From Geobacteraceae bacterium (lineage in GTDB: Bacteria > Desulfobacterota > Desulfuromonadia > Geobacterales > Geobacteraceae), in assembly GCA_023701365.1 (NCBI GenBank), contig JAMPXD010000016.1:1-32131 (forward strand): 32,131 nucleotides of DNA, written 5' to 3'. How positions within the stretch are numbered: the stretch's first letter is position 1; the number at the start of each line of letters is the position of its first letter. This document shows positions 1 to 11,169 of this stretch, one piece after another. The notes below the pieces were generated by a model that was not told the DNA's origin, did no database searches, and worked only from the letters and a program-made list of their open reading frames with translations. The position numbers and the translations under genes are program-made.

Positions 1-425
1 CTACAAGGGCTATGTCCGGCAGGAGTCCCTGGAAGGGGTTTCAATCCTCGCGCGCCCTCACGAGCGCGCGCTACGGCCATGCTGTGTCGCAACCTTGGCC
101 CCAGGCGGTTTCAATCCTCGCGCGCCCTCACGAGCGCGCGCTACCGTATTCTCCCCCACATTGAGATCATCCGTGATGTTTCAATCCTCGCGCGCCCTCA
201 CGAGCGCGCGCTACCGTTGACCAGCGTCTCCATCAGCTGGGTCGGCTCGTTTCAATCCTCGCGCGCCCTCACGAGCGCGCGCTACCGTATTCTCCCCCAC
301 ATTAAGATCGTCAGTAATGTTTCAATCCTCGCGCGCCCTCACGAGCGCGCGCTACCCTGGAGGCCGACATTCGGCGCCCCGGTGTAGGGTTTCAATCCTC
401 GCGCGCCCTCACGAGCGCGCGCTAC
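1..425 (-). CRISPR. Type I-C CRISPR array, six full 37-nt repeats, truncated by window edge
   Basis: Six identical 37-nt repeats start at 38, 108, 178, 249, 319 and 389. Bases 1-4 (ctac) are the tail of a seventh repeat, so the array continues to the left. Spacers are 5-37, 75-107, 145-177, 215-248, 286-318 and 356-388, of 33 or 34 nt. Read on the minus strand the repeat ends in GAGGATTGAAAC, the usual type I-C 3' end, so the array is transcribed leftward, in the same direction as the cas genes, and the newest spacer should be 356-388. The repeat holds a long GCGCGC-rich dyad that would form the hairpin recognised by Cas5c. The 37-nt length exceeds the roughly 32 nt usual for type I-C. Spacers 145-177 and 286-318 are near-duplicates. 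Confidence 0.98.
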
Positions 426-600: not shown

Positions 601-891
601 CTAAATTATCAGGGGCTCATCAAAGAACACTGTCCGGCTCTGGCCGTAAGTCTCCACATGATCGTCCCTCGGCTCGGTGAGCCGGTAAAGCCGCAAATTG
701 TCCTCTTCTTTGTTGATTTCTTTCAACAGTTTCCGACGCAGGTCCTCAAACTTCATTTCGTTCACCTGGCACTCGAAAACGGATTTCTGCACCCGCTGGC
801 CATAGTTCTTGCACACCTGCGCCACCCGTCTAAGCCTTCTGCGTCCGGGCTTAGTGTCGGTGCAAACGTCATAGGCAACGACAATCCACAT
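601..891 (-). CDS. cas2: CRISPR adaptation protein Cas2
   Basis: A 96-residue Cas2 of normal length. Cas2 forms the central dimer of the Cas1-Cas2 integrase, which inserts new spacers at the leader end of the array. The N-terminus shows the ferredoxin-like first strand with the conserved aspartate (VAYDV, Asp8). The start is set by a strong AGGAGGGG a few bases upstream that overlaps the cas1 stop, so the two genes are translationally linked. It is the last cas gene before the leader. The family and order match type I-C. Confidence 0.96.
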   Translation of the reverse strand: MWIVVAYDVCTDTKPGRRRLRRVAQVCKNYGQRVQKSVFECQVNEMKFEDLRRKLLKEINKEEDNLRLYRLTEPRDDHVETYGQSRTVFFDEPLII

Positions 892-900
892 AACCCCTCC

Positions 901-1935
901 TCATGAATACAAGACCGGCGTATACGCATCCAGGTCACCCCGCAGATGCCGGGCCAGAAGACGCGCCTGGACATGGGGCAGAAGACCGAACGGGACCTTT
1001 TCGTCCAATATCGGATGATGGAACTCATCCTGCTTCCGCTTTTGATATGCCACCACAACTTCCTTCCGCCCCGCGTCGTTCAGATAGGTCGCGCCGCCGG
1101 GCCTCACCTCGAAGCTCTTGCCGGTTATCTGCTTGCGGTTAATCAGGGTCAATGCAAGCCGGTCGGCCAGAACTGAGCGAAACTCCTCCATCAGATCGAG
1201 CCCCAGTGACGGCCTTCCCGGTCGCAACGCATGGAGAAAGCCCATCTGCGAATCGAGCCCCACCCCTTCCACCGCCGTGATGCAGTCGTTGAGGAGCATC
1301 GTATAGAGAAACGACAACAGCCCGTTCATCGGATCGAGCGGCGGCCGGCGGCTCCGCCCTTTCATGGTAAAAGTCTGCCGGTCCTCCTCTTTCACCATCC
1401 GGTCGAATACATTGAAATAAGCGTGGGCCGACTCTCCCTCAAGCCCCCGCACATAGTCGATGTCGGTGCTGTCCTTCAGGTGAAACAGCGCATCCGCAAG
1501 CACGTCGGCAGCCCTCTTCAACGCATCGATTTCCTCATGATCGTCCGTCTCCCGCGCCCCGCGCAGGAGGATCTGCCGCGAGTTCTTCACCTTGCCTGCG
1601 ACGATGTTCCGGGCAATCGCCGCCGCCCGTTCCTTGTCCCGCACCGCCTCATACTGGGCCTGGCGCAGCAGCACGTTGCCGCTGGTCTTCCCCACGATCC
1701 GGCACTTGAAGCGGCCGTTCCAGTCGAGGATCACCACCGCCCGGCCGTCGTCGGCGCAGCGCCCCATGATGAAGGGACTGAGCATGACATTGCCCACGGT
1801 GACAATCGCCCCCAGGTGGTGGAGCGGTACCTGCATCTGCACCTTGCCGTCGATCTCGACCTTCACCGTCTCGTGGTCAAGGCAGACGTAAGCCCCCTGG
1901 GTCATGACGTAGAGCGTGTTGAGAAGCTGTTTCAT
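901..1935 (-). CDS. cas1: CRISPR adaptation endonuclease/integrase Cas1
   Basis: A 344-residue type I-C Cas1, full length. It catalyses spacer integration. The metal site is visible: Glu166 in the RGLEGES motif, His235 in GFLHALRPG, and the acidic cluster LDLMEE at 246-251. GGGAGG lies upstream of the ATG. cas2 follows 9 bp after the stop. Unlike the usual cas4-cas1-cas2 arrangement, cas1 is cut off from cas4 by a toxin-antitoxin pair on the other strand. It therefore either needs its own promoter in 1936-2048 or relies on readthrough through antisense genes. Confidence 0.97.
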   Translation of the reverse strand: MKQLLNTLYVMTQGAYVCLDHETVKVEIDGKVQMQVPLHHLGAIVTVGNVMLSPFIMGRCADDGRAVVILDWNGRFKCRIVGKTSGNVLLRQAQYEAVRDKERAAAIARNIVAGKVKNSRQILLRGARETDDHEEIDALKRAADVLADALFHLKDSTDIDYVRGLEGESAHAYFNVFDRMVKEEDRQTFTMKGRSRRPPLDPMNGLLSFLYTMLLNDCITAVEGVGLDSQMGFLHALRPGRPSLGLDLMEEFRSVLADRLALTLINRKQITGKSFEVRPGGATYLNDAGRKEVVVAYQKRKQDEFHHPILDEKVPFGLLPHVQARLLARHLRGDLDAYTPVLYS

Positions 1936-2048
1936 ACGCTACCTCCCGAACAGGCAAATATTTGATGCTGTTCAAACGGTTGGAAAAATACGTCACATTC
2001 TGTTAAGATAAAATCGTTCTGAAAGAAAAAGCATTAAAGGAGCGCACG
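1936..2048 (+). promoter_or_regulatory. Divergent promoter region, cas1-cas2 (-) and toxin-antitoxin (+)
   Basis: On the plus strand TTGGAA (1980-1985), an 18-bp spacer and TAAGAT (2004-2009) preceded by TG make a plausible extended -10 promoter for the antitoxin gene. AAAGGAG lies just before its ATG. A small dyad TTTGA-N6-TCAAA near 1961-1976 could be an operator for autoregulation by the antitoxin. No convincing minus-strand promoter for cas1 stands out. Confidence 0.5.
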
Positions 2049-2303
2049 ATGAAAAGCGCATCAATAACCGTCAAGCTGCCGGAGCCAGTCAAAACCCGTC
2101 TGGACCGTCTCGCCAAGACCACCCACAGGAGTAGGTCATCCCTCGTCTCGTCCGCCGTTGAGGAGATGCTCTCCGTCGAGGAGTGGCAGATTCAAGGGAT
2201 CAAGGAAGCCATTCATGAAGCGGATTCCGGCAATCTTCTCGCCCACGAAGAGATCAAGCTGGAATGGGAGGCGCGTCGCCGTGCACATCAAGTGGGCAAG
2301 TAG
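2049..2303 (+). CDS. Ribbon-helix-helix antitoxin (CopG/ParD/RelB-like)
   Basis: An 84-residue protein. Residues 1-45 have the ribbon-helix-helix pattern of CopG/ParD antitoxins: a basic strand (KSASITVKLPEPV) followed by two helices with the SRSSLV turn. The acidic, amphipathic C-terminus would wrap the toxin. The gene starts after AAAGGAG and overlaps the toxin gene by 23 bp. Such antitoxins neutralise the partner toxin and repress their own promoter. It lies on the plus strand inside a minus-strand cas cassette, which points to insertion. The family (ParD versus RelB) cannot be fixed by eye. Confidence 0.88.
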   Translation: MKSASITVKLPEPVKTRLDRLAKTTHRSRSSLVSSAVEEMLSVEEWQIQGIKEAIHEADSGNLLAHEEIKLEWEARRRAHQVGK

Positions 2304-2565
2304 GGCGCGTCGTGACCTCTTCAGTGTCGAGGCTTACATTTCGCAGCACAACCCCACCGCAGCCGTAGAAACGGTCCTGACGATCATCGCCGCAGTAGAT
2401 TCCCTCCCGGCATTAGCCAACATGGGACGGCCCGGCAGAGTGCCGGACACGCGGGAACTCGTCATCCCCGGCCTCCCTTACATCGTCCCGTATCGCGTCA
2501 ACGACTCCACCGTTGTTATCCTCCGCGTTTACCACACCTCCCGCAAGTGGCCCGATCAGCTCTGA
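2281..2565 (+). CDS. RelE/ParE-family toxin
   Basis: A 94-residue protein if started at the GTG at 2281, which overlaps the antitoxin end and is preceded by GGAGG nine bases upstream. A longer ATG-started version would only extend into the antitoxin gene. The fold signature is typical of ParE/RelE: an N-terminal helix (ARRDLFSVEAYI), a central GRPGRVPDTRELVIPGLPYIVPYR strand region and a C-terminal RVYHTSRKWP strand. ParE members poison DNA gyrase and RelE members cleave mRNA on the ribosome; the terminal HTSRKWP is more ParE-like. It converges on cas4 with only 22 bp between the stops and no clear terminator there. Confidence 0.88.
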   Translation: MHIKWASRARRDLFSVEAYISQHNPTAAVETVLTIIAAVDSLPALANMGRPGRVPDTRELVIPGLPYIVPYRVNDSTVVILRVYHTSRKWPDQL

Positions 2566-2587
2566 CAAATCGATTCTTTCTCCTTTC

Positions 2588-3202
2588 TTAAACGACAAAC
2601 AGCTCCCGCGCCGCCTTGCGGCTTCGCCCCTTCTCACCTACCACATGGGGCAGGCACGACTCCTTCAACGAACAGTCCTTGCAGCGCTTGTCGTTCACTG
2701 GAGGAGGAACGTGATTGCCGGCAACCATTGCATGCACGGCGGCAACCACTTCCTCCAGATGCCCCCGCATGGCCTCGGTAAAGACAATCTCCTTGCGCTC
2801 CCGCGAGCCGTGCCAGTAGAGCGCCCCCTTCTCCACCTTCACCTGAAACATCTCCTCCAGACAGACCGCCTGGGCGAGGAGCTGCAACACCTCGGGGTGC
2901 CCGGCCCGGTGACGGCCCGACTTGTACTCCACCGGATAAGGGACATCGCCGTGGAACTCCACCATGTCGGCCTTGCCGACCAGGTTCAGGCGCCGCGACC
3001 AGATCGGCAAGGCCCGCTCATAGCGGACACCGGCGAGCGCGTGGGACGATTCCACGTCCACGTTTTCATGCACGTCGCGGCCGCGCATGGTGTAGAGGTT
3101 TTCGTGGAAGGTCTGCTCCACGTGGATCAGGGCGCACTGGCGCGGGCAGTAGCTGTAATGCTCCAGGGCGGAGATCATGATGGGGTCGGCTGTGTCAGGC
3201 AT
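2588..3202 (-). CDS. cas4: CRISPR adaptation nuclease Cas4
   Basis: A 204-residue Cas4 (Dna2/RecB nuclease fold with an iron-sulfur cluster). It trims prespacers and selects the PAM together with Cas1-Cas2. Cluster cysteines are visible at the N-terminus (Cys19, Cys23 in YCPRQC) and C-terminus (Cys174, Cys177, Cys183 in CKDCSLKESC). The nuclease core shows GKADMVEF (Asp79) and PVEYKSG (Glu92, Lys94). The ATG at 3202 has GGGGAGG upstream, inside the end of the RhuM gene, whose stop codon overlaps the cas4 start by 8 bp. This makes the two genes translationally coupled. Confidence 0.96.
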   Translation of the reverse strand: MPDTADPIMISALEHYSYCPRQCALIHVEQTFHENLYTMRGRDVHENVDVESSHALAGVRYERALPIWSRRLNLVGKADMVEFHGDVPYPVEYKSGRHRAGHPEVLQLLAQAVCLEEMFQVKVEKGALYWHGSRERKEIVFTEAMRGHLEEVVAAVHAMVAGNHVPPPVNDKRCKDCSLKESCLPHVVGEKGRSRKAARELFVV

Positions 3203-4232
3203 TGGGCTTACCTCCCCGTTTACCGGCCGATTCGATTGCTTTTACCGCCTCCAGAAAATCCCGCTCCGCTCGGGACGGCTCTTTCAGCTGGTCCTGGCGA
3301 TACCGCTCATACTCGGCATGCGCCTTTTGCAGCGCCTCGTCATGGCTGATCCTGCCGGGATGGTTCAGGATCTCCCTACCGCTGAGTTTCAGAAAATCGT
3401 CAAGCTTGGCGATCCAGTCGTGCATGTACATAGGCTTGCGGGAGATGGCCTGCAACTCGGCAAAATCGAGATAGAAGTTCACTATCCGGTTGAGGACCTC
3501 CAATTCCTGCTCGTTCAGGTAGTTCTTGGCGACCTCGACATCGCTCTTCCTCGGCGTGTCGCCCATCCAGGCGGTCATCCCCATGTGTGGCTTGCCGGCA
3601 TCGGCGCGGCTGTGGATGATCTCGGCGGCGGTCTGGCCGTGGGCGGCCCAGTGCATCTTGTTCTGCAGGGCAGCAAAGAACTGCCGGGAAACATCGGTAT
3701 TCGGGTCGTAGTCGATACTGGTGGCGTAAATATCCAACACCTTGCGCCAGAAGACCTTTTCCGACGAGCGGATGTCACGGATGCGGGCCAGCAGCTCGTC
3801 GAAGTAGTTGCCGCCGCCCGCCTGCTTCAGCCGCTCATCATCCATGGCAAAGCCTTTGATGATGTACTCCCGCAGCCGCTGGGTGGCCCAGATGCGGAAC
3901 TGGGTGCCGCGATGGGATTTAACCCGGTAGCCGACTGAGATGATGACGTCGAGGTTGTAATGGTCAACCTGGTATGTCTTTCCGTCCGCGGCAGTTGTTG
4001 CATAATTTGCAACAACTGCCTCACGGCGCAACTCACCTTCGTCGAAGATGTTCCGGATATGCTTTGAAATGACCGACTTGTCTCTTTGAAACAGATCAAC
4101 CATCTGGTTAAGTGAAAGCCAAACGGACTCACCCTTAAACCTGGCCTCAATCCTGGTTTTACCATCCTCGGTTTGGTAGAGGAGGAAGTCGCCGGACTTA
4201 GCAGGATCGTTCTTTTGTGTTCTGGTGGTCAT
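3195..4232 (-). CDS. RhuM-family protein embedded in the cas operon
   Basis: A 345-residue full-length RhuM (virulence-associated) family protein. Typical features are the N-terminal LYQTEDGKTRIEARFKGESVWLSLNQMVDLF, then the KSVISKHIRNIFDEGEL helix-turn-helix-like segment, and YNLDVIISVGYRVKSHRGTQFRIWATQRL at about 93-121. The family is widespread near restriction and mobile genes; its biochemical role is not established. It lies 22 bp after cas7c and overlaps cas4 by 8 bp, with its own CGGAG site, so it is a true member of the cas transcript rather than a loose insertion. It is not part of the standard I-C gene set. A defence, toxin or regulatory role is inference. Confidence 0.93.
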   Translation of the reverse strand: MTTRTQKNDPAKSGDFLLYQTEDGKTRIEARFKGESVWLSLNQMVDLFQRDKSVISKHIRNIFDEGELRREAVVANYATTAADGKTYQVDHYNLDVIISVGYRVKSHRGTQFRIWATQRLREYIIKGFAMDDERLKQAGGGNYFDELLARIRDIRSSEKVFWRKVLDIYATSIDYDPNTDVSRQFFAALQNKMHWAAHGQTAAEIIHSRADAGKPHMGMTAWMGDTPRKSDVEVAKNYLNEQELEVLNRIVNFYLDFAELQAISRKPMYMHDWIAKLDDFLKLSGREILNHPGRISHDEALQKAHAEYERYRQDQLKEPSRAERDFLEAVKAIESAGKRGGKPNA

Positions 4233-4254: not shown

Positions 4255-5172
4255 TTAAACCAATCGAGTAAGAGTTACCCCGGGGAAGCCTAGAGCTTCA
4301 AGAGAACCAGAATCAGGTGCCTGCATTTTATCTTTATACTCTGAAAAACTGCGGGGGGAATTATTGAGCTGCGGGACATCTACAAGCTCTAGGAGTTTAT
4401 TCGCCGGAGCATTTCCATATGGGCACTCATGGCTGAAGATATAAACCCCACGACTGGCCATCATCCCACGGCTAGCAGAACGGTCTATGTCCCACATGTT
4501 TTGCAACGCAGCCCAGAAGATCTTCAAGTCCTCACTGGTCACGCCTGTATCCTTTGCAAAGCCTGGTGTAAAGAATCCATAAGACTTATAAAGACCATAA
4601 GGGAGCAACGCCTTGCGACCCATTTCCGTTGTTTTGCCTCCGGTTTCACCTTCACCCTCGACTGCCTTGGTATCCTCCGGCTTAGTTACCGCAACGCGGG
4701 TAATGGACACGTCCATTGGAATAATCTGGTCAATTGAGCGAGCAAAGGTTATTTGGAGCGGCCCGCGAACCTGACCACAGTTTACCTCGGTTGTCATTAC
4801 GGCTCCGAACATACGGATGTCATAGAAGTTTTTACACATCCACTTGCGGGCCGCGTCAACATCTTCCCGCTTCTGTTTCGTACCCGTCGATTTCATGCCT
4901 TCAGCATCGTATGCCCGTTTATGCATGTCATTCAGGGCAACCCCCTTGTTCTGGACGTAAATCTTCATGGTCTCCTGGTCGCCGCTCATAGCATCCACAT
5001 AGTTGCGCACTTTACGTTTCAGACAGACATCAGTGACTAGGCCTTGCATGGTTTCCGGATCAACGCGAGGCAAATTGCCGGCATCAGGATCGCCGTTAGG
5101 GTTACCATCGGCTACATCGAATAGAAGAACAAAATCATGGCGCTTGGTTACATCGTTAATAATGGAATTCAT
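4255..5172 (-). CDS. cas7c: Cascade backbone subunit Cas7c (Csd2)
   Basis: A 305-residue Csd2/Cas7 protein, which polymerises along the crRNA to form the Cascade backbone. The N-terminal RHDFVLLFDVADGNPNGDPD motif is diagnostic, followed by the DVCLKRKVRNY helix. I place the start at the second ATG (5172), because GGAGG lies eight bases before it. An upstream ATG at 5187 would add MEDTN but would put that ribosome-binding site inside the gene. cas8c ends 8 bp before the 5187 ATG. The usual cas4 neighbour is replaced by RhuM. Confidence 0.96.
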   Translation of the reverse strand: MNSIINDVTKRHDFVLLFDVADGNPNGDPDAGNLPRVDPETMQGLVTDVCLKRKVRNYVDAMSGDQETMKIYVQNKGVALNDMHKRAYDAEGMKSTGTKQKREDVDAARKWMCKNFYDIRMFGAVMTTEVNCGQVRGPLQITFARSIDQIIPMDVSITRVAVTKPEDTKAVEGEGETGGKTTEMGRKALLPYGLYKSYGFFTPGFAKDTGVTSEDLKIFWAALQNMWDIDRSASRGMMASRGVYIFSHECPYGNAPANKLLELVDVPQLNNSPRSFSEYKDKMQAPDSGSLEALGFPGVTLTRLV

Positions 5173-5195
5173 GTTGGTATCCTCCATAGAAGTTA

Positions 5196-5600
5196 TTATT
5201 TGGGATCAGTTGATTCTTTTGCCTTTGCCAGTTTACGTGCTGCAATATCAGCGCTGTCCTGTGCCCGCTGGTGATAATAACCAAGAGCAAACATCCCTTG
5301 CTGCTTGAGGGTTAATGTTGAAGGATACGATGTCAACCCGCTCTGCACCTCCTCTAGTTTTAGCTGCAAGGCTTTGTAGGCGCCTTCATTGTTCTTGCGC
5401 AGTTTCTCCAGATGGGCCTGGGCGCCGCGCAGTAAGGTGCCGAAAACCGAAGCCGGAGCGCTGGACGCCGCACCATAAAAACGCCCGACAATGGTTGTGT
5501 TTGTTTTGTTGAGCGCCGAAAACTGGATTGATTCCAACACCCTCAACAAACGGCCGCACAAATACTCTGGTTCACGGTTTGTCAGCTCAAGCTGTTCCAT
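5196..5600 (-). CDS. cas11c: Small subunit Cas11c from an internal start in cas8c
   Basis: In type I-C systems the small Cascade subunit is translated from within cas8c. Here codon 446 of cas8c is an ATG (5600) preceded by AAAGGAGGG (5605-5613) with five bases between, as strong a ribosome-binding site as any in the operon. The product would be 134 residues, beginning MEQLELTNREPEYLCGRLL and mostly helical, which matches the expected size and position. No proteomic evidence is available from sequence, but motif strength and family precedent agree. Confidence 0.82.
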   Translation of the reverse strand: MEQLELTNREPEYLCGRLLRVLESIQFSALNKTNTTIVGRFYGAASSAPASVFGTLLRGAQAHLEKLRKNNEGAYKALQLKLEEVQSGLTSYPSTLTLKQQGMFALGYYHQRAQDSADIAARKLAKAKESTDPK

Positions 5601-6935
5601 GTATCCCTCCTTTATTTTTGTTTCAGGTTCTGTTGATAGCAACACCATCTTGATCAGCGCGGCATGACTTTTCCTTACCCCTTGCTCCGCTTTTGTTCTC
5701 TTGACTGCCTGAAAAAGAAGCCACATGGGCAAAGTTGTACGTTCACCCTCAAGTGCGCATTTCAGGAGCAAACGCGGCACATTGGGAGTCAGTTTTTCCA
5801 TGTCCGGCTTTTCCTTTTTCAAGGGGACGGTTGCGGCGGCAAGACGGGAGATGCCAAGCGGTTTGGGGGGCTCACCATTAGCCTCCACAATCCGCTGCAG
5901 GGCGAAGTAGTGGGCAAGGTTTCGCTTAACACCGGCAACCGTTGTTTCCAGCCAGTCGCGTACCGCCACGCGGGCACCGCTGGCAGAAAAGGCAGATGCA
6001 TAGAACTTTGTAGTATCCAGGTCTGTTGCCGCCTCTTTCCCACTAAATGCAGATGCAATGAGTTGCTGGACATCAGTTGGGTCTGGGTTCGAAAGTAGAG
6101 TTGCTATAGAAAAGCCATTATCTTCTTTAGTCCAAAAAATATAGACCAATGATCCAACGGTAAGATGGGTGGATTCTCCCTCAAGCAGATTGTTTGCGGC
6201 CTTGCTGAATCTCTCGCCGCAATCAGCACAAGTAGGAGCAATCAGTGATTCTTCAAGACCGTAAGAGGTGAATGCCGCTGAATTTGCCGAAATGAGCGCA
6301 TTCCCGGCGGTCTGTCCATTGGGAATCCGTTTGATTTTGAAGGGCAGACGGCGAACGGCTGGCTTCATTTCGCCACAGATAAGACACATCATTACATCGG
6401 CAGCATCCTTACCACCATCGGCGATTTCTTCTGTTTCGGCACCGGTATAAACCGCCCAGAACCTTTGAACATTTGGCAAATCTGTGGGGAAAATATTATT
6501 GACGCGGAAAGTAACATTATGGGAAGGATCAAAATCCTCTGGCATTTCAGTAGTTAGATGCGCTGCCTTCTCATAAAAGTTCAGGACAGCCTGAATTGTC
6601 GGCTCTGAGGTAGATAGTAGCGCATGCGAAATTAACTCGACAAAGGCATTATTGCGTTTATTCACATTCACTCGATCAGATTCGTCACGAGCTTTCCCTA
6701 GAACATACTCTCCGTTGTCCGCCAACAACTTCGATTTAACTCCTGCAGAGCGCCCGATATGAGGAACCAGAAATTCCTTACCCCTGTCATTCTTCTTGCC
6801 GCTTGTGGTTGCAGTAATCCCTTGGAAATTGCCATCATGGTCAAGTTCGATAATCCATTTAACTGCCGTCTTGCCATACATGGCTGGCGTAGAATCAATC
6901 CGGGTGGAATATTCTCGCAATCGTTGTAGAAGCAT
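5196..6935 (-). CDS. cas8c: Cascade large subunit Cas8c (Csd1)
   Basis: A 579-residue Csd1/Cas8c, the PAM-reading large subunit of type I-C Cascade. A four-cysteine zinc-binding pattern is present: CLIC at 184-187 and CADC at 236-239. The C-terminal third (NREPEYLCGRLLRVLESIQ onward) is the helical part that also serves as the small subunit Cas11c. GGGAGGG lies seven bases before the ATG, and the cas5c stop is 2 bp upstream. Length and gene order are normal for the family. Confidence 0.96.
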   Translation of the reverse strand: MLLQRLREYSTRIDSTPAMYGKTAVKWIIELDHDGNFQGITATTSGKKNDRGKEFLVPHIGRSAGVKSKLLADNGEYVLGKARDESDRVNVNKRNNAFVELISHALLSTSEPTIQAVLNFYEKAAHLTTEMPEDFDPSHNVTFRVNNIFPTDLPNVQRFWAVYTGAETEEIADGGKDAADVMMCLICGEMKPAVRRLPFKIKRIPNGQTAGNALISANSAAFTSYGLEESLIAPTCADCGERFSKAANNLLEGESTHLTVGSLVYIFWTKEDNGFSIATLLSNPDPTDVQQLIASAFSGKEAATDLDTTKFYASAFSASGARVAVRDWLETTVAGVKRNLAHYFALQRIVEANGEPPKPLGISRLAAATVPLKKEKPDMEKLTPNVPRLLLKCALEGERTTLPMWLLFQAVKRTKAEQGVRKSHAALIKMVLLSTEPETKIKEGYMEQLELTNREPEYLCGRLLRVLESIQFSALNKTNTTIVGRFYGAASSAPASVFGTLLRGAQAHLEKLRKNNEGAYKALQLKLEEVQSGLTSYPSTLTLKQQGMFALGYYHQRAQDSADIAARKLAKAKESTDPK

Positions 6936-6937
6936 CG

Positions 6938-7591
6938 CTATCCCTCCCGCATATAAAGGTCAGGCTTAACACGCAAAACTCCACAGTCCAGGCCAGCATG
7001 AAAGAATACCGGTTTGCCTCGGCCAGAGCGATCTTTTGCATAATCCAGATCGAACAGCATCAAGCCCAGATCATCGGTCAGGTCAATCGGCTGTTCGCTG
7101 CCGTCCGGTTCAGCGAAGAATGCCGTAAACTCACGACATCCAAGATATGGGGCATGATAGAACTTTCCTTGTCCGACCCGGCGTCGAAACTGGTCGCGGT
7201 ATTTGGGTTCCGGTTCGGTCGCATGGGGCTGAAGAGCAACATCGGCCTTGATGATGTAGGCGACATCGCGCAACGCCAGGGTGTGCCGTTGCGCCCGGTC
7301 TTCCTCGGCGAAATAACCTCCTCCGCGCTCCATCCACCCTTTCGCAGTTGAGACGACCGCTTTGCTGTTCACCTCATTGCGCAAGATCGAAAAGTGGCGA
7401 ATTGGATTAAGTACCTGAATCTCCCTTATCAGCCATGAGAACTCCGGCTTCCAGAAGATCGCCTCCAACACACCACGAGCAGCGGATGGGGTCATGACCG
7501 GATAGCTGACTCTTTCCGCTTTCATCTCGGGACGGGTAAAGCAGGCAAACTCTCCCCAGACCTTTACTTCCAACGGTGGTCCTGTCTGCAT
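6938..7591 (-). CDS. cas5c: Cas5c (Csd5), crRNA-processing endonuclease
   Basis: A 217-residue Cas5c. In type I-C there is no Cas6; Cas5c cuts the repeat at the base of its hairpin, leaving an 11-nt 5' handle, and caps the Cascade. The start KVWGEFACFTRPEMKAERVSYPVMTPSAARGVLEAI is diagnostic of the family. I use the ATG at 7591 because AGGAGG precedes it. A longer reading frame back to 7663 would overlap cas3 and starts with non-family residues. cas3 ends 25 bp upstream and cas8c begins 2 bp downstream. Confidence 0.95.
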   Translation of the reverse strand: MQTGPPLEVKVWGEFACFTRPEMKAERVSYPVMTPSAARGVLEAIFWKPEFSWLIREIQVLNPIRHFSILRNEVNSKAVVSTAKGWMERGGGYFAEEDRAQRHTLALRDVAYIIKADVALQPHATEPEPKYRDQFRRRVGQGKFYHAPYLGCREFTAFFAEPDGSEQPIDLTDDLGLMLFDLDYAKDRSGRGKPVFFHAGLDCGVLRVKPDLYMREG

Positions 7592-7616
7592 GGTTCCTCC
7601 TTTCTGCGTAATAACA

Positions 7617-9827
7617 TCAACCGCCAAGCACCAAGCGATCCGGTTCAATCGCCGTTGCGACAATTCCCTTTAACTGGTCATACCCACCGCACCACTCCCA
7701 CAGGCCAGGGAACAATGGGATTACCAGCCCTTCGCTTTCATACTTCTTCAGATAATGCCTATTGATGTTCACAAGGTAGGGTTGCAACTTCCTCATAACC
7801 GTGATCGGCTGCTGGTACTTTGCTGCGGCCAGAATCTCGTCAACATCCATATTCTTTCCGTCCAATCCGCGATAGCGAACCACAACCGGGACAGATTGAT
7901 CCTCAATCATCTGGAATCTTTCGCCAACATCCTCGAAACAAAACCTTTGACGAAGCGACTGAATCTTATGCACGTCAGTTGGGACTACCTGATAAAGCAG
8001 CTTGAAGTAGCTTTCATAGGTGGCTGGATGGTGAAAATCAAAATTGTCACTCCCCATCAATGCCGACGCAGTATCGGTTCCGGAGCGGTAAGCGCCTATC
8101 GGTTGACCGCCTTCCGCCGGCTTGAATACGACCATTTCCCCGACATCGAGCCGCCCCTCACGGTTGCAACGGCCTGCCGCCTGAACAATCCGGTCAAGCG
8201 GCCCGAGTGCACGCAGAACAACGGGAAAGTCAATATCAACGCCGGCTTCCACAACCTGTGTCGCAACCAGGCGACACGGTTTGCGGTCATCAAGAGCCTT
8301 TCGCACCTTTTCCAAAACATCACGACGGTGTGCGCCGCAAAGGAGAGTGGAAAGGTGTAAGGCATTTTTATCGTCGAGCGCGTCCAATAAAGCAATGGCG
8401 TCCTTTTTTGTATTTACCACGGCAAGCGCCTGGTTATGGTTTTCGCGCTGCATCTCCCTGGCAACCCGCTCCCAGTCCCATGTTTCAGTCTTAAATGGCT
8501 GCTGATACTCGACCCGTTTCAACGCCTCAAAGAGCCGTGCCGGTTCGGGAATAATCTCGTTAATTCCGTCAATCCCCTTCAGGTATGGGCCGGTGTCGAG
8601 AGATGGCTGTGTGGCGGTACAAAACACAACAGAAACGCGGTAGTAAGTCACCAGTTGCCGCAACACATCCAGGATCGGGGTTAGGTACTGCGTCGGCAAG
8701 GTTTGCGCTTCATCGAGAATGATCACACTGTTGGCAATGTTATGCAGTTTGCGACATTTGGAAGTTTTGTTGGAGAAGAGGCTTTCGAAGAGTTGTACCG
8801 TTGTTGTCACAACGATTGGGGCTTCCCAGTTTTCGGCGGCCAGCCGTGACCAGGATTTGCCGCTTCCATCATCGTCATCATCGGAAGCAACCGCACTGTG
8901 ATGCTCAAGAACGATTCGAGAGTCGATCCTGTCGAATATCCCGCGATATACATCGGCTGTCTGTTCGATGATACTCGTATAAGGAATGGCAACTATGACC
9001 CTATCCATGCCGTGCCTAATGGCATGATTAAGGCCAAATGCCAAGCCCGATCGTGTCTTGCCGCCACCGGTCGGAACAGTGAGTCTGAAAAAGCCAGGGG
9101 CAGATGAAGCCGCATCAACGCAATTCTGATAAATTTCATCCCGAATATGTTTGAGGTTTTCATTCGAACCGACTGGAAGCGCCTTTTGATCTTCTTCGAG
9201 GCAGGCCCAAAGCCGCACCAGCTTGGCATCAAACTTTCGTTTTTCACTTTGTTCAGGCTCAAAATGTGATTCCGTGTCCAGAAAATCGGCATCTACCAAT
9301 GTTGAAAAAAGCAGCCGCAAAAACAATTCACAGACAAGCGGATCCTTACTATTGGCAACGAATTCAGGGAATGATACTTCAGACATTGTCTCGTCAATTA
9401 ACCCTAGCTTCAGAAATTGCTGTATCGCTTCTTGTGTTTGTAATGTGACACTGTATTTATTCAGCCAAGTCTTGAGATTGGCTTTATTCAATACCCCCCC
9501 GTGATGACCAGCAATTAAAAACGCAAGTAATGCTTGGTTTCGCGTCATTGCCAAAACTGCACCTGCACCTTTATGATCCGGACCACGATGTTTTCGATCA
9601 GGTTCATCCTCACACTGTTTCAAATATGACTGAAAATCTGGGTGCACCTTCCCCGCATCATGGATCAAGCCTGCCCAAAATGCAGGTTCTGATGCACCGA
9701 ATTTACCTGCTAATATTTTTGCCAAACGGGCAACTTCGAGCACATGCTTTTTAAAGTCATGGCGCTTGCCTTCCTTGTTTTTCGAATGCGCGCTTAAATT
9801 CGAAAGTGTGCTTTTATCCTCTACCAA
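7617..9827 (-). CDS. cas3: CRISPR effector helicase-nuclease Cas3 (type I-C)
   Basis: A 736-residue fused HD nuclease and SF2 helicase, which unwinds and degrades DNA marked by Cascade. The HD domain shows His23, the LIHDAGK motif (His56, Asp57), His85 and AGHHG (His108, His109). The helicase shows Walker A VPTGGGKT (251-258), the DEAQ box (372-375), the CTATQPS motif III and QAAGRCNREG motif VI. The start codon is TTG, preceded by GGAGGG at five bases. The 98-nt leader between its predicted promoter and this start contains the degenerate CRISPR repeat described separately. It is first in the operon. Confidence 0.97.
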   Translation of the reverse strand: MVEDKSTLSNLSAHSKNKEGKRHDFKKHVLEVARLAKILAGKFGASEPAFWAGLIHDAGKVHPDFQSYLKQCEDEPDRKHRGPDHKGAGAVLAMTRNQALLAFLIAGHHGGVLNKANLKTWLNKYSVTLQTQEAIQQFLKLGLIDETMSEVSFPEFVANSKDPLVCELFLRLLFSTLVDADFLDTESHFEPEQSEKRKFDAKLVRLWACLEEDQKALPVGSNENLKHIRDEIYQNCVDAASSAPGFFRLTVPTGGGKTRSGLAFGLNHAIRHGMDRVIVAIPYTSIIEQTADVYRGIFDRIDSRIVLEHHSAVASDDDDDGSGKSWSRLAAENWEAPIVVTTTVQLFESLFSNKTSKCRKLHNIANSVIILDEAQTLPTQYLTPILDVLRQLVTYYRVSVVFCTATQPSLDTGPYLKGIDGINEIIPEPARLFEALKRVEYQQPFKTETWDWERVAREMQRENHNQALAVVNTKKDAIALLDALDDKNALHLSTLLCGAHRRDVLEKVRKALDDRKPCRLVATQVVEAGVDIDFPVVLRALGPLDRIVQAAGRCNREGRLDVGEMVVFKPAEGGQPIGAYRSGTDTASALMGSDNFDFHHPATYESYFKLLYQVVPTDVHKIQSLRQRFCFEDVGERFQMIEDQSVPVVVRYRGLDGKNMDVDEILAAAKYQQPITVMRKLQPYLVNINRHYLKKYESEGLVIPLFPGLWEWCGGYDQLKGIVATAIEPDRLVLGG

Positions 9828-9846
9828 GGAGCCCTCCGTTAGATGG

Positions 9847-9926
9847 TGCGCCCGCCCAGATGGACGGGCGCATTAATACATCACATTAAAACATACATGT
9901 TTCAACCCTCGCATTGAATTGCGCTT
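9847..9926 (-). ncRNA. Candidate crRNA-like cas-regulating RNA (degenerate repeat plus guide)
   Basis: Read on the minus strand, a degenerate repeat ends at 9899. Its last 14 nt match the array repeat in 13 positions (GCGAGGGTTGAAAC against GCGAGGATTGAAAC) and it keeps a short CGCA-N6-TGCG hairpin where the real repeat has its long stem. The next bases (9898 downward) read ATGTATGTTTTAAT and match the promoter segment 9941-9928 (ATGTAAGTTTTAAT) in 13 of 14 positions. The one mismatch is at guide position 6, which type I Cascades leave unpaired. After 26 nt comes an 8-bp hairpin (9847-9854 with 9865-9872). The start of transcription predicted from the promoter falls at the repeat's beginning. 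Crispr-like autorepressors (CreR) are known in other systems; assignment here is inference. Confidence 0.6.
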
Positions 9927-9932
9927 TATTAA

Positions 9933-9960
9933 AACTTACATAAATAATTTTGTCTGTCAA
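9933..9960 (-). promoter_or_regulatory. cas operon promoter, overlapping the candidate guide target
   Basis: Minus-strand TTGACA (+ strand 9955-9960), 16 bp, then TAAGTT (9933-9938). The -35 is perfect, the -10 weak. The -10 lies inside the 14-nt segment copied by the crRNA-like guide downstream, so Cascade bound there would block this promoter. The three bases 5' of the target are TTT, one base from the type I-C PAM TTC. A dyad CTATT-T-AATAG (9961-9971) abuts the -35 and may be a further operator. Confidence 0.65.
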
Positions 9961-9971
9961 CTATTTAATAG

Positions 9972-10188
9972 TTTTTTCTAACCTAACATTCATTTCCCCT
10001 GAGGTGCTCCTCCAGCCCATGCATCCGCCCATCCTCCGCCATATGCGCAATCTGTACATTACTCATAACCACTCCGCCTTCCCCAGCCATAGCCCCCCCT
10101 CAACATCCCGCAAACTTTACCACAGACTTGCGACAAAATAAGTCATTCTAATTTTATTTATTGAATTTTCTCGTCCGCCCCACCTGCC
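9972..10188. other. Intergenic region upstream of the cas promoter
   Basis: No gene, RNA or clear promoter is visible in this stretch between the cas promoter and the REP cluster that ends the transposase gene. It contains short pyrimidine-rich and AT-rich parts only. Confidence 0.5.
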
Positions 10189-10247
10189 GGGCGCCCCCGC
10201 GGGGGCGCCCCTACATAACCAGGGCGGCCACGCGGGGCCGCCCCTAC
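10189..10247. repeat. REP-like palindromes at the transposase 3' end
   Basis: A 22-bp perfect palindrome of GGGCGCCCCC type (10189-10210) followed by CCTAC, then a second imperfect palindrome GGGCGGCC...GGCCGCCC with CCTAC. The transposase stop codon (TAG, 10244-10246) is supplied by the CTAC of the second copy. The same sequence family recurs at 10470-10617, 10886-10958, 12573-12628 and 14557-14599. Confidence 0.8.
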
Positions 10248-10879
10248 GAAATCATTTTTGCCGGGTTTTCCTCGTCATCCTCCCATCGCAGGGGGTTGCC
10301 TTGAATGTATTCCCGGATGCCGGCCAATTCGTTCTCATTGCGGATCACCCGTTCGTAATAATTGCGCTGCCATAACCGGCCGGGAAATGGCGGCCAAACC
10401 GATTGCTTGACTCCGCGGATATATGCGTTAGTGGTCATCGTCTTGAACCAATCAATCATATCACCCAACGTAGGGGCGGCCCCATGTGGCCGCCCTTCTT
10501 CTGCCCCGCGTGATTGCCCTCGTTTTTCGGCCCCATGCGGCCGCCCTGGTTTTGTATTTGAATTCAGGCACCCACATGGGGATAAAGGCGGGCACCCACA
10601 TGGGGGTGCCCCTACGATGGCGACGATGGCGTGGAAATGGTTCGGCATGATGATGAATTCATCCAATTCAACGCCGGGAAATTTATCCGGCAATTTCGCC
10701 CACCATTCCGCCACCATCCGCCCTGCCTCGTTCGATACCACGGCCCCGCCGACAACCCCGCCGAACAGGCATTCCCGCCCCTGCGCACATACCGTCACGA
10801 AATACGCGCCGATTGCTGAATAATCGTAATCACGCAGACGGATGGAACGGCGATGGTGAATGTCGGGGTTATATTTCAT
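10244..10879 (-). CDS. REP-associated tyrosine transposase (IS200-like Y1 family)
   Basis: A 211-residue RAYT protein from the ATG at 10879 (KYNPDIHHRRSIRLRDYDYS). Family marks are AYFVTVCAQGRECLFG, the HUH motif in FIIMPNHFHAI, and the catalytic tyrosine region LWQRNYYERVIRNENEL near the C-terminus, then YIQGNPLRW. These enzymes act on REP palindromes as single-stranded DNA. About 50 codons between HFHAIVAIV and TLGDMIDWFK (10470-10617) are REP palindromes read in frame as GAPPCGCP/GRPHGAAP-rich sequence, which is not part of the usual domain. A reading frame continues upstream to 11002 but is only translated REP sequence. The insert may or may not leave the enzyme active. Confidence 0.85.
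   Translation of the reverse strand: MKYNPDIHHRRSIRLRDYDYSAIGAYFVTVCAQGRECLFGGVVGGAVVSNEAGRMVAEWWAKLPDKFPGVELDEFIIMPNHFHAIVAIVGAPPCGCPPLSPCGCLNSNTKPGRPHGAEKRGQSRGAEEGRPHGAAPTLGDMIDWFKTMTTNAYIRGVKQSVWPPFPGRLWQRNYYERVIRNENELAGIREYIQGNPLRWEDDEENPAKMIS
10470..10617. repeat. In-frame REP cluster inside the transposase gene
   Basis: Begins with TAGGGGCGGCCCCATGTGG and ends with CCACATGGGGGTGCCCCTA, near-perfect inverted arms, with two further palindromes between. Its length keeps the transposase frame open. Confidence 0.8.
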
Positions 10880-10885
10880 ACATCC

Positions 10886-10958
10886 TGTAGGGGCAGCCCC
10901 ATGTGGCCGCCCTGGTTTTGCATTTGAATTCGGGCACCCACATGGGGGTGCCCCTACA
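10886..10958. repeat. REP pair upstream of the transposase start
   Basis: Two 21-nt arms, 10886-10906 and 10938-10958, are inverted copies with one mismatch, separated by a 31-nt spacer containing CCGCCCTGGTTTTGC. It lies 7 bp before the transposase ATG and could fold as one long hairpin in the transcript. The region 10959-11169 beyond it shows no gene; it contains a CCGATG/CATCGG dyad near 11003-11042. Confidence 0.8.
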
Positions 10959-11169
10959 ATCCATTTGTCATCGCCAGCCAAACCCGTCTTCGCCAAAATC
11001 AACCGATGAGCGGATCAATGAGTATCAGGTTTTTCCCATCGGCTGAAGCGGAACTCCACACATGAAACGCGAGCCACCTACCGCCTCATAAGCATTAGGC
11101 CTCCCCATTTCCCCGAACACCCCTCTTTTCAAGGTCAATTTCCCCGAGATGTGGCGTAACATTCGATAT

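Follow-up and report, generated by a model that had tools for sequence, protein, structure and literature searches.

Type I Cascades flip out every sixth position of the guide. In the CreA RNA, positions 6 and 12 can be mutated without effect, and in H. hubeiense CreA is transcribed from a promoter that it autorepresses, using a seed of positions 1–5 and 7–11 (PMC8501985). When type I-C Cascade is placed on a −10 element in Neisseria, transcription is repressed (PMC10865793). According to the review passages that treat CreR, its repression is eased when competing crRNAs or anti-CRISPRs take Cascade (PMC12737573, PMC13131331). The original prediction for the leader described here overrated its novelty, since CreR autorepression is known for types I-B, I-E and V-A (PMC13131331) and is described as widely distributed in type I (PMC12737573); those passages name these three subtypes and not I-C, which the primary survey may include. 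Here we argue that the leader of a type I-C cas operon is likely to encode a CreR-type autorepressor, in the form of a degenerate mini-CRISPR whose guide matches the promoter immediately upstream of it.

The leader element and its target

The window, by which we mean the whole stretch of 32,131 nucleotides analysed from a Geobacteraceae bacterium, contains a complete type I-C system within about 9 kb of its minus strand, in the order cas3, cas5c, cas8c, cas7, a RhuM-family gene, cas4, cas1, cas2 and array. The cas5c gene is intact and gives a full-length match to the type I-C Cas5 structures 8dex and 8g9t. The leader in question is bounded by the real cas3 and, upstream, by the ghost of another cas3 start. 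The features are listed below; L040 denotes a second locus, treated in the next section.

9955..9960, minus strand: −35 element TTGACA of the putative cas promoter, a perfect hexamer
9942..9944, minus strand: PAM position of the target, read from the sequence as TTT (TTA in L040)
9928..9941, minus strand: promoter target (protospacer) ATGTAAGTTTTAAT, overlapping the putative −10 TAAGTT (9938–9933)
9910..9923, minus strand: reduced hairpin of psi-repeat 1, CGCA-ATTCAA-TGCG, with a 4-bp stem
9899..9909, minus strand: 5' handle AGGGTTGAAAC of psi-repeat 1, 10/11 identical to the cognate AGGATTGAAAC
9872..9898, minus strand: psi-spacer (guide) ATGTATGTTTTAATGTGATGTATTAAT, seed 9898–9885
9848..9871, minus strand: psi-repeat 2, GC-rich stem-loop GCGCCCGTCCATCTGGGCGGGCGC of type I-C repeat sequence, 3' handle lost, then ACC
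9833..9837, minus strand: Shine-Dalgarno sequence GGAGG of cas3
7617..9827, minus strand: cas3 (Pfam/NCBIfam Cas3 HD and helicase)
6938..7663, minus strand: cas5c, the type I-C crRNA-processing nuclease (TIGR01876, over cut-off)
5196..6935, minus strand: cas8c (PF09709, TIGR01863)
4255..5187, minus strand: cas7c (PF05107, TIGR02589)
3195..4232, minus strand: rhuM-family gene within the operon (PF13310), at the same site in L040 and many relatives
601..3202, minus strand: adaptation module (cas4 3202–2588, cas1 1935–901, cas2 891–601)
38..425, minus strand: CRISPR array of six repeats GTAGCGCGCGCTCGTGAGGGCGCGCGAGGATTGAAAC (Rfam CRISPR-DR9)

The RhuM-family gene sits between cas7 and cas4, sharing 8 bases with the latter. 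Many type I-C loci of the order carry this insertion too, for example L014, L015, L017, L018, L021, L025, L036, L039 and L040. Within the array, the spacers at 145–177 and 286–318 are near-copies of each other (ATTACTGACGATCTTAATGTGGGGGAGAATACG, ATCACGGATGATCTCAATGTGGGGGAGAATACG), which suggests two acquisitions from related targets.

Read in the direction of transcription, the leader presents TTGACA, TTT, target, psi-repeat 1 hairpin, handle, guide, stem-loop, and the ribosome-binding site and start of cas3. Target and psi-repeat 1 are only a few bases apart, and cas3 follows psi-repeat 2. The putative −10 (TAAGTT, 16 nt from the −35) is poor despite the perfect TTGACA, and a generic promoter scan called no site for the cas promoter (promoter and terminator scans were uninformative here), so we only infer the start of cas transcription. 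L040 keeps the TTG of the −35 and the 16-nt distance to the −10.

The handle and reduced hairpin of psi-repeat 1 (9909–9899 and 9923–9910), the 14-nt copy of the −10 region in the guide and the TTT at the PAM position (9944–9942) are all present as the original prediction had described them. When the handle is extended to 14 nt (GCGAGGGTTGAAAC) it agrees with the cognate repeat at 13/14 positions, a value reached by 0/2000 dinucleotide shuffles of the leader. GAGGRTTGAAAC occurs eight times in the 3.79-Mb genome, namely in the six array repeats, in the leader and at one place elsewhere. The guide ATGTATGTTTTAAT (9898–9885) matches the target (9941–9928) at 13/14 positions with a sole mismatch at position 6, giving a seed match at 1–5 and 7–14 (1–11 and 13–16 in L040). 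This was equalled by no more than 7/4000 shuffles of the guide and 0/1000 of the region, and the seed motif ATGTANGTTTTNAT is found in the host genome in guide and target only.

Downstream of the guide, a strong hairpin had been noted where a second repeat would be expected. This hairpin is real and keeps the stem and loop of the type I-C repeats found in the same order, but lacks one base and has CACC in place of the handle; aligned with GAGCGCCCGTCCTATCTGGGCGGGCGAGGATTGAAAC, the repeat of L015, L020 and L038, its GCGCCCGTCC-ATCTGGGCGGGCG agrees apart from one gap of 1 base, and a search with the leader matched the CRISPR array of a relative. L040 also has it, including the GCGCACC end. Because the hairpin matches the repeats of these three loci, there are two pseudo-repeats and not one: the degenerate repeat of the original prediction stands, its description as lone does not (the second lies at 9871–9848). 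By its sequence the unit is a psi-repeat 1 with handle kept and stem reduced, a psi-spacer, and a psi-repeat 2 with stem kept and handle lost. The distance from handle to stem is 27 nt in the window compared with about 36 nt in the array and 35 nt in L040, the window guide being about 9 nt short.

The leader folds better than its shuffles at both loci (z −4.1 and −3.1). In the minimum free energy fold the handle is paired with the guide, conformers containing the psi-repeat 1 hairpin lying about 2 kcal/mol higher at both loci. The handle is complementary to the guide seed (window 9908–9881, minus strand; likewise in L040), and a handle–guide hairpin is therefore expected in the free RNA of both, which could mask the guide before it is loaded into Cascade. 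The window handle also contains an SD-like GAGGG followed by a five-codon reading frame; L040 has ATG TAA.

A second locus and the wider survey

Type I-C loci of the order and phylum were collected and their cas3 leaders scanned for any handle-like copy with a leader-matching guide after it. Besides the window, one locus stood out. This was L040, from a genome (G035) of another genus in the same family, which has the same layout upstream of a type I-C cas3: target ATGTAAATTTTTATGT, psi-repeat 1 hairpin CACAC-GTTTCA-GTGTG, spaced from the handle as in the window, handle GGGATTTGAAC, guide ATGTAAATTTTGATGT and, 35 nt past the handle, stem-loop GCGCCCGTCTAGAAGGGCGGGCGC. The L040 guide matches its promoter at 15/16 positions with a sole mismatch at position 12, which 0/4000 shuffles equalled; its handle taken alone is not significant (601/2000 shuffles). 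At both loci the similarity between guide and target begins at the first base past the handle. The original prediction had left chance open as an explanation of the short, AT-rich match; because the independent L040 locus has the same layout, chance is now effectively excluded.

The same prediction had proposed comparing guide and −10 region in related type I-C leaders. Between the window and L040 the seeds differ at guide positions 6, 7 and 12 and at target positions 7 and 12. Position 7 is the one differing position that would be read, and there guide and target have changed alike (G/G vs A/A); unmatched changes are confined to 6 and 12, which belong to the every-sixth positions left unread by Cascade. 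By simple arithmetic, chance would place both mismatches on such positions in about 2% of cases and produce a matching change at position 7 in about 3–5%. Identity between the two loci is 73% (71/97) from target to psi-repeat 2 and 45% (92/203) further upstream, the latter being about the level of unrelated DNA when aligned. These comparisons suggest that guide and target coevolve, at one co-varying read position across two loci. An apparent covariation of the psi-repeat 1 stem (four compensatory pairs, window vs L040) was rejected, since setting the register from the 3' arm leaves one covarying pair (G-C to A-U).

About 50 other type I-C leaders that were examined lack the element, among them those of the nearest effector relatives L052, L054 and L055, in which there was no handle-like copy. 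A model (R1) built from the window element and its L040 homologue found only these two loci among 277 genomes of the class, and only the window locus in a 395-genome sample of the phylum, the returned set of which did not include G035. The next strongest matches in genomes of the order, the two loci aside, were mostly repeat-spacer-repeat units of real arrays and are thus an unprompted sign of the derivation of the element. Searches of phage and plasmid records gave no match to the element, and a scan of genome contigs with Cas3 returned distant loci only.

Two candidates from other leaders were discarded. A 16/16 'guide–target' match in L020 proved to be a dispersed REP-like element (CCGTAGGGGCGAACCT). 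On the L012 contig, a GC-rich MAG sequence that bears the label Bacillota and whose Cas3 is 44% identical, cas3 is preceded by a perfect GAGGATTGAAAC repeat end (1879–1891), but the sequence following that end does not match the promoter convincingly. Dispersed GC-rich REP-type palindromes (for example CGGGCGCCCCCGCGGGGGCGCCCCTAC) also occupy 10180–10960 of the window and occur in the leaders of relatives, where they give false direct-repeat matches.

The PAMs of the two targets, TTT in the window and TTA in L040, are off-consensus relative to TTC. For one L040 spacer, the protospacers in a relative's genome and in a viral contig have TTC, and the one in another genome has TTA. The window's own spacers had no phage match, and scans of viral contigs with three of them produced one unconvincing match. 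Since TTT or TTN is reported to be usable in some type I-C systems (PMC10865793, PMC8482600, PMC10989782), it is plausible that TTT and TTA act here as a working weak PAM.

Alternative explanations and the proposed circuit

The two matching copies, ATGTAnnTTTTnAT, might instead be a direct repeat bound by a protein, that is, a transcription-factor operator with incidental repeat-like flanks. The copies are AT-rich, lie 43–48 nt apart and are kept in both loci, and the region is rich in palindromic sequence. An operator does not, however, account for a similarity that starts exactly where the handle ends, nor for a second copy that sits between the psi-repeat hairpin with its handle and a further CRISPR repeat; it leaves the confinement of mismatches to positions 6 and 12 unexplained, and the genome has no further occurrence of the motif, which would be unusual for the site of a regulator. 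We regard an operator as improbable. The degenerate repeats, short window guide and off-consensus PAM are what would be expected of a dead array relic, in which a spacer once acquired from the promoter is now decaying without function, and any CreR is likely to have begun as an accidental self-spacer. Yet two genera keep the same parts even though their effector genes are only 28–45% identical, the block from promoter to psi-repeat 2 is conserved while its flank is not, and at the only read position that differs guide and target changed in step, all of which make simple decay an unlikely account.

Regulation of cas3 translation has also to be considered, either through the hairpins or through a minigene in which the GAGGG of the handle is the ribosome-binding site for AUG UAU GUU UUA AUG UGA (AUG UAA in L040). 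The window GAGGG is at a usable distance before the ATG, L040 has GGGG before ATG TAA, and the folding of both leaders would suit such an attenuator. The mini-ORF, however, is not conserved past ATGTA, and neither the promoter match nor the CRISPR-repeat identity of the hairpin would be explained, so that a translational leader is very improbable indeed. Operator, relic and translational leader each explain parts of the leader and not the combination.

A crRNA-like RNA of CreR type, encoded in the cas leader and directed against the cas promoter, was the core of the original prediction and is supported at the level of sequence, L040 keeping the whole layout. The CRISPR machinery here probably turns down its own production via the CreR mechanism. 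The cas transcript would start at psi-repeat 1, and Cas5c would cut 3' of the small hairpin to leave an 11-nt handle followed by the guide, the processed RNA being predicted to start AGGGUUGAAACAUGUAUG. Cascade carrying this guide would bind the −10 region through the short match and block transcription, a match of this length permitting binding without licence for attack by Cas3. Abundant free Cascade would then throttle the operon, and titration of Cascade by array crRNAs or its blockage by an anti-CRISPR would release the operon again. If the handle-less psi-repeat 2 goes uncut, the guide would stay at the 5' end of the cas mRNA.

Effector exchange and relation to known systems

The window and L040 have in common the promoter and CreR-type element upstream and rhuM-cas4-cas1-cas2 downstream, with effectors from different type I-C lineages (28–45%) in between. 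Their adaptation genes are closely related (cas4 82–88%, cas1 89% and cas2 86–87% identical; rhuM 65%) and their effector genes are not (cas3 34%, cas5 45%, cas8 28%, cas7 37–38%). The window effectors are closest to those of L052–L055 (49–79%), loci without rhuM in which the element is found in 0/3 readable leaders; the L040 effectors are closest to those of L034, L036–L039 and L041 (57–87%). Conservation of leader and adaptation module around divergent effectors indicates that the effector block was exchanged between them, and on these sequence comparisons the interference module was swapped en bloc within a single operon (window 4255–9844 vs L040).

Upstream of the window leader and the real cas3 lies a ghost of a cas3 N-terminus (10066–9992, minus strand; IAHMAEDGRMHGLEEHLRG / MSNVQIAHMAEDGRMHGLEEHLRGN). 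Similar ghosts are present in L022, L037 and L041, and the functional cas3 of L014–L016, members of the order, starts alike. The ghost has the appearance of a scar left by an exchange of effector modules.

Because the repeat handle is shared, the leader guide would serve any type I-C Cascade slotted in. It is conceivable, and we put this forward tentatively, that the guide is a portable, effector-independent autorepressor that governs expression during effector exchange; the two leaders suggest how an operon may keep its expression in check while its effector genes are exchanged. If our reading of the leader is true, RNA-guided autorepression of CRISPR effectors would extend to type I-C, with guides made by Cas5c and carried in the cas mRNA leader. 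Compensatory changes offer a direct test of the mechanism in the two natural variants, which are one read position apart and associated with very different effector modules.

Among described elements, the phage-borne solitary repeat RNAs (Racr; PMC10651486) resemble the window element in mimicking a solitary CRISPR repeat; they differ in that the window element lies in a host cas operon and has a promoter-matching guide. CrePA, in which a KilA-N-type toxin, CreP, is paired with CreA, likewise directs a crRNA-like RNA against a promoter in a CRISPR locus, as far as the account in PMC12737573 describes it; in the window no CreP was identified, and a RhuM gene is present in the operon. CreA of CreTA (Halobacterium hubeiense, PMC8501985; PMC9458426) is closer, having a psi-spacer that lies between two degenerate repeats and matches its own operon's promoter, the same seed of 1–5 and 7–11 with positions 6 and 12 unread, and a more diverged psi-repeat 1. 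CreA targets, however, carry an exact TTC PAM, unlike the TTT and TTA seen here, and the window has no creT between promoter and guide, the operon under control being that from cas3 onward. We therefore rejected a CreTA assignment, for which the few bases between target and psi-repeat 1, with cas3 after psi-repeat 2, leave no room.

The likeness is greatest to CreR (Cell Host Microbe 2023, as related in PMC13131331, PMC12737573 and PMC12948488), which those accounts present as a mini-CRISPR adjoining cas genes, with a partial match to the cas promoter and expected autorepression of Cas proteins. The window element is likewise a crRNA-like unit in a cas locus with limited seed complementarity (1–5, 7–11) to the cas promoter. 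Compared with CreR as related there, it differs in its proposed processing by Cas5c instead of Cas6 or Cas12a, in its TTT or TTA PAM, and in its position within the mRNA leader, downstream of its own target.
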